The notes under the pieces are model-generated. The model was given only the letters and a program-made list of their open reading frames with translations. It made no database searches and was not told where the DNA came from. The position numbers and the translations under genes are program-made. From contig NZ_DRGY01000138.1 of assembly GCF_011049865.1 (NCBI RefSeq), forward strand, positions 1 through 64,000: a stretch of 64,000 nucleotides of DNA, read 5' to 3'. The stretch is from Marinobacter antarcticus. Its GTDB lineage: Bacteria > Pseudomonadota > Gammaproteobacteria > Pseudomonadales > Oleiphilaceae. Shown one piece after another: positions 43,540 through 61,874 of the stretch. Position 1 is the stretch's first letter. Each line of letters begins with the position of its first letter.

Positions 43540-45156
43540 ATGCAAACACTTCAAACCAGCGTTAACCCGCAATCCGATGAGTTCCGCGGTAACACGGTTG
43601 CCATGAGCGCGCACATTCAAACCTTCCGCGATGTTGAGCAACAGGTGCTCGACCTGGCGGAAGCGGCAAGGGAAAAGTTCACCACGCGCGGAAAACTGCT
43701 GCCCCGGGATCGCATTAACCGCTTACTGGATCGCGGCACGCCGTTTCTGGAGCTGTGTTCCCTGGCCGGCTACAAGATGCACGACGACAAAGACGGCAGC
43801 ATGGCCGGCGGCAACATCATCGCCGGCATCGGCACCGTCAGCGGCATTCGCTGCCTTGTGGTCGCCAGCAACAGCGCCATCAAAGGCGGCACCATCACGC
43901 CTGCAGGCCTGGATAAAACCCTGCGTCTGCAGCAAATTGCCAAAGAAAACAAACTGCCGGTTGTTTCCCTCTCGGAAAGCGGCGGGGCCAACCTGAACTA
44001 CGCCACCGACATTTTTGTGCAGGGCGCGCGCGGCTTCGCCAACCAGGCGCGCATGTCCGCCGCCGGGCTGCCACAGGTTACCATCGTACACGGCAACGCA
44101 ACCGCAGGCGGCGCCTACCAGCCGGGTTTATCTGACTACGTGATCGCTATCCGTGGCCAGGCCAAAATGTTCCTGGCCGGCCCGCCACTGCTGAAAGCCG
44201 CAACCGGCGAAGTAGCCGATGCCGAAGAACTCGGCGGTGCCCAAATGCACGCACAGGTCGCCGGCACCGCCGAATACCTGGCCGAAGACGACGCAGACGG
44301 CATTCGCCAAGCCAGAAACATTCTGGAAGCTCTGCCGTGGAACGAGCAGCTTCCAGTGCAACGCGAACTAAAGTGGGACAAGCCCCTGCACCCGGCGGAA
44401 GAGCTGCTAGGGGTTATTCCCTCAGATTCCAAAAAACCTTACGACGTGCGTGAAATCCTGGCGCGCATTGCCGATGGCTCAAAGTTCCTGGATTTCAAAA
44501 ATGAGTTCGACGACCAGACCGTATGCGGCACCATCCGCATTGAGGGTCACTCCGTTGGCATCGTCGGCAACAACGGCCCGATCACCCCGGCCGGAAGCGC
44601 AAAAGCCGCTCAATTCATCCAACTCTGCGACCAGGCTGGCACGCCCCTTCTGTTCCTGCACAACACCACCGGCTTCATGGTGGGCACCCACTCAGAGCAG
44701 AACGGCATCATCAAACACGGCTCAAAAATGATTCAGGCAGTGGCCAACTGCCGGGTGCCAAAAGTCGCAATCGTGATCGGTGGTTCCTACGGTGCAGGTA
44801 ACTACGCCATGTGTGGCCGCGGCCTGGACCCACGCTTCATCTTCGCCTGGCCCAACAGCCGAACCGCCGTCATGGGCCCGGCCCAGGCCGGCAAAGTGAT
44901 GCGCATAGTGGCTGAGGACAAACAGAGGCGCAGCGGCATAGAGCCTGATCCGAAGACTCTGGACTTTCTGGAGCAAGCGACGGCCAAGAAACTGGAAGAC
45001 GGTTCCACAGCCCTGTTCGGTACAGCCCGGCTCTGGGACGACGGCCTGATTGATCCACGGGATACACGGCGCGTTATCGCGCTGGTTCTGGACGTATGCC
45101 GCGAAGCCGAAATCCGGCAATTACGGCCCAATACATTTGGCGTAGCCCGCCTCTAA
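43540..45156 (+). CDS. atuC: Geranyl-CoA carboxylase beta subunit
   Basis: Carboxyltransferase family (GGANLNYATDIFVQGARGFANQARMSAAGLPQVTIVHGNATAGGAYQPGLSD); Gly where MCC beta subunits have Phe. Confidence 0.87.
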   Translation: MQTLQTSVNPQSDEFRGNTVAMSAHIQTFRDVEQQVLDLAEAAREKFTTRGKLLPRDRINRLLDRGTPFLELCSLAGYKMHDDKDGSMAGGNIIAGIGTVSGIRCLVVASNSAIKGGTITPAGLDKTLRLQQIAKENKLPVVSLSESGGANLNYATDIFVQGARGFANQARMSAAGLPQVTIVHGNATAGGAYQPGLSDYVIAIRGQAKMFLAGPPLLKAATGEVADAEELGGAQMHAQVAGTAEYLAEDDADGIRQARNILEALPWNEQLPVQRELKWDKPLHPAEELLGVIPSDSKKPYDVREILARIADGSKFLDFKNEFDDQTVCGTIRIEGHSVGIVGNNGPITPAGSAKAAQFIQLCDQAGTPLLFLHNTTGFMVGTHSEQNGIIKHGSKMIQAVANCRVPKVAIVIGGSYGAGNYAMCGRGLDPRFIFAWPNSRTAVMGPAQAGKVMRIVAEDKQRRSGIEPDPKTLDFLEQATAKKLEDGSTALFGTARLWDDGLIDPRDTRRVIALVLDVCREAEIRQLRPNTFGVARL

Positions 45157-45243
45157 GAGATTCAAATAATGGTGTCTGGAATCGAACAACCATTGAAACT
45201 GAAAATTGTTAGCAGGTAGCAGTGCAGTTGCAGACATAAGCGG

Positions 45244-45345
45244 CTGTGGGGGTAGGCTTTCAGAAAATGTCGGAGGCCATGGATGGCCGGAGTCAAGCGC
45301 ACACGGACGTGCTTGTAGCGGTTTTCTGAAAGCCTACCCCCACAG
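45244..45345. repeat. Long perfect-stem intergenic hairpin, copy 1
   Basis: CTGTGGGGGTAGGCTTTCAGAAAA / TTTTCTGAAAGCCTACCCCCACAG (24/24 bp) around a 54-nt apical core homologous to copy 2. Confidence 0.9.
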
Positions 45346-45413
45346 TCGCAACCCGAGTCAAAGAACCTGCGCCAAGAGAGGCAGGCAAGAACTAATTATC
45401 AGGAGAACAAAAC

Positions 45414-46574
45414 GTGAAATTCACAGCCGAACACGAAGCCCTGAGAAAAACCGTCCGCGATTTCGTGCAAAAAGAAATCAACCCCCATTGCGACGCGTGG
45501 GAAGAAGCCGGCGAGTTCCCCATTCGTGAAATATTCAAGAAAATGGGCGATTTGGGCTTGCTCGGCATTCAAAAGCCCGAAGAATACGGCGGCATGGGGC
45601 TGGATTACAGCTACAACCTCGTAGCGGCTGAAGAACTGGGCATGGCCAATTGCGGCGGCGTACCCCTGGCCGTTGGTGTGCAAACCGACATGTGCACGCC
45701 GGCCATTGCTCGCTTTGGCTCTGACGAACTGAAGCGAAAATTTCTGGCACCGGCTATCGCCGGCGACATGGTCGGCTGCATTGGCGTGAGTGAAGTCGGT
45801 GCAGGTTCCGACGTGGCGGGCATGAAAACCAACGCCAAAAAAGACGGCGATGACTACATCATCAACGGCTCCAAAATGTGGATCACCAACAGTCCGAAAG
45901 CCGACTTTATTTGCCTGCTGGCCAACACCAGCGACGACAAGCCGCACAAGAACAAATCCCTGATTATCGTGCCCATGAACACGCCGGGCATCACCATGAG
46001 CCCGCACCTGAACAAGCTGGGCATGCGCTCTTCCGAGACCGCTCAGATCTTCTTTGACGACGTTCGCGTGCCACAGCGTTACAGAATTGGCGCCGAAGGT
46101 ACGGGCTTCATGATGCAAATGCTGCAGTTCCAGGAAGAGCGTTTGTGGGGTGCCGCCAACGTGATCAAAGCGCTGGAAAACTGCATCAATCAGACCATTG
46201 ATTACTGTCGCGAGCGCAAGACGTTCGGGATTCCGCTGATCGACAACCAGGTGATTCACTTCCGCCTGGCCGAATTGCAAACCGAAGTAGAGGCCCTGCG
46301 CGCCCTCACCTATCAGGCCTGCGAACTGCACATTGAAGGCAAGGAAGTGACCAAGCTCGCGTCCATGGCCAAACTGAAGGCCGGCCGCCTCGGGCGTGAG
46401 GTTACCGACAGCTGTCTGCAGTACTGGGGTGGCAACGGTTATATGTGGGACAACCCCGTATCCCGTGCCTTTCGTGATGTTCGGCTGGTGTCTATTGGCG
46501 GTGGTGCCGATGAAATCATGCTGGGGATTATTTGCAAGATGATGGGCACTTTGCCTGGCAAGCGCAAAAGCTGA
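45414..46574 (+). CDS. atuD: Citronellyl-CoA dehydrogenase (acyl-CoA dehydrogenase family)
   Basis: ACAD motifs GCIGVSEVGAGSDVAGMKTNA, QYWGGNGYMWDNPVSRAFRDVRLVSIGGGADEIMLGII. Confidence 0.86.
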   Translation: MKFTAEHEALRKTVRDFVQKEINPHCDAWEEAGEFPIREIFKKMGDLGLLGIQKPEEYGGMGLDYSYNLVAAEELGMANCGGVPLAVGVQTDMCTPAIARFGSDELKRKFLAPAIAGDMVGCIGVSEVGAGSDVAGMKTNAKKDGDDYIINGSKMWITNSPKADFICLLANTSDDKPHKNKSLIIVPMNTPGITMSPHLNKLGMRSSETAQIFFDDVRVPQRYRIGAEGTGFMMQMLQFQEERLWGAANVIKALENCINQTIDYCRERKTFGIPLIDNQVIHFRLAELQTEVEALRALTYQACELHIEGKEVTKLASMAKLKAGRLGREVTDSCLQYWGGNGYMWDNPVSRAFRDVRLVSIGGGADEIMLGIICKMMGTLPGKRKS

Positions 46575-58823: not shown

Positions 58824-58932
58824 GGCATCGACAGGGTGTAGCGTTCAAAACACGCTGTGAATACGTCCCTGTGCGCTTGGCTCCGCCATTCATGGCTACG
58901 CACAGTTTTGAGCGCTACACCCTGTCGGTGCC
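58824..58932. repeat. Long intergenic hairpin, copy 2 (opposite orientation to copy 1)
   Basis: 28-bp arms GGCATCGACAGGGTGTAGCGTTCAAAAC / GTTTTGAGCGCTACACCCTGTCGGTGCC with two G-U-compatible differences; 53-nt core homologous (reverse complement) to copy 1. Confidence 0.9.
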
Positions 58933-61831: not shown

Positions 61832-61874
61832 GCAAAAAAGCTCCGCCACCAAAAGGTCGCGGAGCTTTTTTTGC
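61832..61874. terminator. Bidirectional intrinsic terminator between serA and ompA-like gene
   Basis: GCAAAAAAGCTCCGC-caccaaaaggtc-GCGGAGCTTTTTTTGC. Confidence 0.9.

Follow-up and report, generated by a model that had tools for sequence, protein, structure and literature searches.

Long hairpins with drifting stems in Marinobacter as a probable high-copy, MITE-like form of the TwoAYGGAY RNA with predicted docking sites for CsrA

Introduction

A long hairpin lies between the atuC-like and atuD-like genes of Marinobacter antarcticus, and its position raises the question of whether it serves those genes, through processing or attenuation of their transcript, or belongs to an element dispersed through the genome. 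A preliminary description of the locus had raised both ideas and had left undecided whether the family was already described. We have examined these questions by computational analysis of the 64-kb stretch of DNA that carries the hairpin (hereafter, the window), of the host genome and of related genomes. In our judgement the hairpin is probably a copy of the TwoAYGGAY RNA, which in the Marinobacter branch has become a high-copy, dispersed, MITE-like repeat with predicted CsrA docking.

Results

Two hairpins of one family in the window

The top two inverted repeats found by a search of the window were the hairpins at 45240-45349 (+ strand) and 58824-58932, designated here copy 1 and copy 2. The arms of copy 1, 28 nt each, are 96% complementary, and their innermost 24 nt pair exactly around a core of 54 nt; the 24/24-bp repeat described previously was thus reproduced exactly, in coordinates and in core sequence. 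The arms of copy 2 (58824-58851 and 58905-58932) are also 28 nt long, are 93% complementary and enclose a 53-nt core. Exact inverted repeats reached 24 in the window versus 13 at the longest in 10 first-order Markov simulations of it. Both hairpins are real, lie far beyond chance expectation and are members of one family. The features of the two loci are as follows.

43540..45156, + strand: atuC-like gene (carboxyltransferase; PF01039), upstream of copy 1
45235..45354, + strand: match of copy 1 to Rfam RF01731, TwoAYGGAY (31.6 bits; gathering cut-off 43)
45240..45267, + strand: copy 1, 5' arm of the long variable stem, pairs with 45322-45349
45275..45288, + strand: copy 1, hairpin A, GGCC-AUGGAU-GGCC, ANGGAN hexaloop at 45279-45284
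45299..45312, + strand: copy 1, hairpin B, GCAC-ACGGAC-GUGC, ANGGAN hexaloop at 45303-45308
45313..45321, + strand: copy 1, conserved core tail on the 3' side, UUGUAGCGG here and UUCACAGCG in other copies
45322..45349, + strand: copy 1, 3' arm of the long variable stem, pairs with 45240-45267
45414..46574, + strand: atuD-like gene (acyl-CoA dehydrogenase; PF00441, PF02771), downstream of copy 1
58824..58932, core on the - strand: copy 2 of the family (101.5 bits with covariance model R1)

The small inner palindrome noted earlier, GGCCATGGATGGCC, is present and is really a hairpin with an AUGGAU hexaloop; the second core hairpin, whose loop B lies 24 nt downstream of loop A in copy 1, had been missed. 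The homologous core that had been reported for copy 2 was found there on the - strand, with loop A mutated to AUGAAU (58888-58893) and with AGGGAC as loop B (58865-58870). Copy 2 is situated between convergent ABC1-kinase and FAD-oxidase genes. An ordinary intrinsic-terminator-like hairpin (AAAAAAGCTCCGCCACC...GGTCGCGGAGCTTTTTT) occupies window positions 61834-61871, between convergent genes.

A dispersed family

The covariance-model search that had been proposed for the core was carried out with a model (R1) built from 11 copies of the host genome, and it revealed further copies in the host and its relatives: 20 in the 3.93-Mb host genome and from 3 to at least 70 in each genome searched of the same genus, the R1 counts being limited at the top by a scoring cap. 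A strict two-loop pattern gave 1-111 matches per same-genus genome, with a reversed control near zero. One of these genomes (G036) was sampled without bias over a contiguous 400 kb, where 17 of 22 long hairpins were family members, which extrapolates to ~190 per genome. The suspicion of a dispersed family was therefore justified, as about 20-200 unrelated loci per genome carry the element. At the class level, R1 matched at 1e-6 in 44 of 274 genomes, representing 39 of 222 sampled gammaproteobacterial genera; a search of viral contigs gave no match.

One region (L319 and L323; G046:C27:404784-405349) holds three tandem TwoAYGGAY-like copies ~233 bp apart. We also observed a second family of long hairpins in Marinobacter. 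Its arms drift as well, its conserved core is a different one (GGAAAAAGAACTCGCTNNGCTCNGACACCTTTTTCC), and it is sometimes located 15 bp or less from a TwoAYGGAY copy. Its positions include the following.

L080: 2330-2412
L177: 2352-2434 and 3640-3724
L255: 635-728 and 1964-2057
G036:C1: near 1021380, 1050429, 1051031 and 1291474

Identity with the TwoAYGGAY RNA

The question of whether this family had been described can be answered in the affirmative: it corresponds to Rfam RF01731, TwoAYGGAY, of clan CL00106. Individually the window's copies are sub-threshold, since copy 1 scores 31.6 bits against a cut-off of 43 and copy 2 gives no hit. Sibling Marinobacter copies that coincide in position with R1 hits (L265, L267-L270) score 43.4-49.8 bits, and because these exceed the Rfam cut-off we assign the family, by sequence comparison, to the TwoAYGGAY RNA, even though the window's own two copies fall below it. 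The assignment agrees with the form of the element, which has two adjacent AYGGAY-like loops (AUGGAU and ACGGAC of copy 1 fit exactly) and an external stem that is present but unconserved in sequence; the tandem hairpins, the AYGGAY-type loops, the poorly conserved external stem and the occurrence in Gammaproteobacteria are all likenesses to the published RNA. Matches to microRNA families in Rfam were discarded, as any long perfect stem yields them.

Weinberg et al. 2010 (PMC2864571) rated TwoAYGGAY a probable RNA that is not cis-regulatory, and a later report (PMC4333381) predicted CsrA binding independently from the loops and noted the poor conservation of the external stem. In both accounts TwoAYGGAY is a structured RNA of unknown function, whereas the Marinobacter copies form a high-copy repeat. 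We found nothing in the literature on TwoAYGGAY about a high copy number, pairs placed back to back, a bounded unit or strand-specific wobble, and a literature search for Marinobacter repeats or dispersed CsrA decoys returned nothing relevant. New here are the up to ~190 copies per Marinobacter genome by extrapolation, the 50 of 51 neighbouring pairs that stand back to back, the 134-bp bounded repeat and the presence in 39/222 genera.

Structure, covariation and the strand under selection

The family architecture is a fast-evolving stem of 23-30 bp capped by two ANGGAN-hexaloop hairpins 23-25 nt apart; exactly two closed hexaloops at this spacing occurred in 267 of the 271 elements analysed. 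In the core, hairpin A is GCC-ANGGAN-GGC and longer, and hairpin B is UAC/CAC-ANGGAN-GUA/GUG. Of the cells of the long stem (helix 1), 98.1% were paired; 21 of its 24 pairs had double changes, and none of 500 shuffles scored as high. The stem covariation that the preliminary description had proposed to tabulate is therefore very strong, and its argument that a conserved loop on diverged yet self-complementary stems reflects selection on structure is borne out.

Among 24 lineage representatives, hairpins A and B both covary, and loop positions 1 and 5 are A and positions 3 and 4 are G, the loop composition in this set being partly fixed by the search pattern. Many other loci were likewise picked by core-based patterns, which renders loop conservation among them partly circular; the contiguous 400 kb of G036 and the class-wide R1 hits are less biased samples. 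R1 hits, which were selected without a loop pattern, nearly all have two ANGGAN-type loops. In those from other gammaproteobacterial families the arms and hairpin-A stems are entirely different, yet ANGGAN is retained in both loops and covariation is seen in both stems, and in nearly every locus examined from 19 class-level genomes the two loops were kept on entirely different stems. As to the tandem G.A pairs that TwoAYGGAY has in one stem, hairpin A of Marinobacter contains a GGA/GGA-type internal loop at positions 5-7, where other families are often Watson-Crick paired.

When stem pairs were oriented by the core strand, we counted 7190 Watson-Crick pairs, 146 G.U, 14 A.C and 48 others. G.U exceeded A.C in 111 elements and the reverse held in 10 (p=1e-22); in a de-duplicated sample the bias was 128 to 11. 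This asymmetry shows selection on the single strand that carries the GGA loops, and speaks against mechanisms acting on double-stranded DNA (template-switching correction of the arms, cruciforms), which predict equal numbers of G.U and A.C. The strand under selection acts most simply as RNA, and folding as ssDNA is the remaining alternative. The latter would suit a selfish DNA repeat whose fold matters as ssDNA during transposition, in the manner of REP/IS200-like or integron-like elements, with a transposase and not CsrA reading the GGA loops, since ssDNA likewise tolerates G.T better than A.C.

Dispersal and mobility

The clearest signs of mobility came from a genome of another family in the same order (G051), which has 74 copies with near-identical arms where inspected. 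Alignment of 23 of these defined a unit of 134 bp with sharp ends, TACTA...TAGTA, that is, the bounded terminal inverted repeats of a MITE; this delimitation applies to G051 and not to the Marinobacter copies. No target-site duplication beyond chance was detected in the same 23 copies. From the near-identical arms and sharp ends we infer that the whole element, arms included, is copied around. The Marinobacter copies, on the other hand, are old: atuC-atuD orthologues hold their position and orientation while the arms drift by compensatory changes. One copy in G051 (L326; G051:C43:38600-39500) seems to have its core inverted relative to the TACTA/TAGTA ends, as if flipped between the arms, and at the 58.8-kb locus the core of L145 and L148 is oriented oppositely to most orthologues, possibly by a true flip.

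These data bear directly on the selfish ssDNA repeat. The bounded unit with its ends, the near-identical copies in G051 and a nearly random orientation relative to genes are all as such a repeat would have them. However, many high-copy genomes (G001, G005, G008, G009, G019, G021-G024, G027, G028) lack Y1/RAYT transposases and low-copy ones (G004, G012, G020, G026) have them, the loops keep the CsrA consensus in all lineages seen despite completely changed stems, and orthologous Marinobacter copies persist with compensatory drift and do not resemble fresh insertions. We consider the selfish ssDNA repeat unlikely for these reasons. RAYT-driven mobilisation was rejected, since transposase presence does not track copy number, and our search for a mobilising enzyme or partner transposase found none. 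We also rejected the idea that the arms are a host target duplicated in inverted orientation, because they share a weak near-core consensus (CTTTCC-RAAA), drift in orthologues and travel with the element in G051.

The element resembles REP/BIME sequences in being intergenic, palindromic, of high copy number and paired in inverted orientation. REPs, which one account (PMC3733652) gives as 20-40 bp palindromes tagged with GTAG/CGTC, differ from it in that the TwoAYGGAY repeat measures 105-134 bp, has variable arms around a conserved internal core and shows no correlation with Y1 transposases. It is like MITEs in its small size, its lack of coding sequence and, in G051, its defined boundaries with short inverted termini (TACTA/TAGTA), and unlike them in that no target-site duplication or partner transposase was found and selection on structure is strand-specific. 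The earlier choice between a REP/MITE-like element and a structured RNA thus dissolves, both applying in part, although a RAYT-driven REP is unsupported.

Arrangement, gene context and the atu locus

Among 51 non-redundant neighbouring pairs less than 300 bp apart, 50 were back to back (- then +), 1 was tandem and none was facing; the same arrangement, with different cores, was seen in G039 and G041. As a consequence of this pairing, the last element transcribed is sense from either direction. Single copies showed a mild excess of sense orientation relative to the upstream gene (103 versus 65 antisense), these counts being approximate, as genes were called with a simple codon-usage finder. A stand-alone sRNA with its own promoter was rejected, since no promoter was found in 45100-45450, and in the 134-bp unit none is recognisable and space for one is scarce.

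Copies are often located 28-45 nt past a stop codon, and so stable a hairpin at such a position would suit a transcription terminator or attenuator. We give this reading hardly any chance of being right: at least 5 T within the 9 nt past the stem on the core strand occur in 3 of 271 copies versus a background of 3.3%, the 31 opposite-strand T-runs are concentrated in the context in which they would be of no use to the neighbouring gene, and no terminator was called in 45100-45450. The attenuation role suggested earlier is thus unsupported, as no U-tract follows the stem.

A local cis-regulator that sets the ratio of atuABC to atuDEFGH had likewise been suggested; it would act by processing or stabilisation. 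Its position between atuC and atuD, the presence of at least one copy at 21 of 29 orthologous Marinobacter loci and an atuD-proximal core that is sense in every case are compatible with such a function. In contrast, six of these loci (L102, L104, L112, L116, L118, L119) have no copy and two (L092, L115) retain a half-stem remnant of it, an antisense partner often adjoins atuC, and the family occupies 20-200 unrelated loci elsewhere; a dedicated role in the atu operon is, in our estimation, very improbable, and the proposed ratio setting found no support. Flipping of the core between species at this locus was rejected, as the pattern is constant once - strand loci are oriented. In six orthologues (L095, L097, L105, L107-L109) another repeat, GTAGGTCGGATTAG...CGTAATCCGACAAA, has been inserted repeatedly between the paired hairpins.

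Discussion

The ANGGAN hexaloop is an established high-affinity site for CsrA/RsmE. The family presents paired GGA hexaloops of this type on short stems, and in every lineage observed its loops agree with the CsrA consensus although the stems are completely changed. The gene csrA is present in 57 of 58 relative genomes, including 51 of 51 high-quality ones, and the host CsrA is canonical in its MLILTRR and AVHREE segments. In G051, which of the genomes has the most csrA-like matches (9), the recent burst of the element (74 copies) is also the most evident, by coincidence or co-adaptation.

The best supported reading of the element is a transcript-borne, putative CsrA docking site with a long stem as its presenter and protector. 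The core strand would be transcribed by read-through from flanking genes or from antisense promoters, and the RNA would fold into the 23-30 bp stem, its sequence free to drift while pairing holds, capped by the two ANGGAN hairpins. One CsrA/RsmA dimer could then bridge both loops, which the long stem would present and protect. Each locus would place a small docking site close to the end of a transcript and the copies together would buffer free CsrA, while the element presumably spreads whole, stem included, in the manner of a MITE. The weak orientation bias counts against a docking RNA to the extent that many copies would need antisense transcription or transcription of their own. The same weak bias, together with the many loci, speaks more for an element that acts globally or is selfish than for one that switches a particular locus, and the family may be a genome-wide docking array instead of a switch for one operon.

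A bolder proposal, for which we would claim possibility rather than likelihood, is that a mobile RNA-binding-site repeat has been amplified in many Gammaproteobacteria and that its back-to-back pairs, by placing a docking hairpin at the downstream end of the transcript in either direction, act as a distributed, transcription-coupled buffer of CsrA. The putative sites recall the CsrA-sequestering sRNAs CsrB/CsrC/RsmX/Y/Z, which also carry multiple GGA-in-loop sites. Those sRNAs, however, are few free genes with many sites each, whereas the TwoAYGGAY repeat has many loci with two sites each, borne on a long variable stem in a unit that lacks a recognisable promoter.

As a method, the excess of G.U over A.C in drifting stems can tell cleanly which strand of a repeat is the functional one. 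In the usual picture of CsrA/Rsm control, a few dedicated sRNAs titrate one protein. If the docking proposal is true, 100-200 two-site hairpins in the intergenic transcripts of a genome would make the availability of CsrA depend on global transcription, and a repeat could rewire a regulator. The wide spread of the family (39/222 genera) makes TwoAYGGAY, an orphan RNA since 2010, testable in cultivable Marinobacter.
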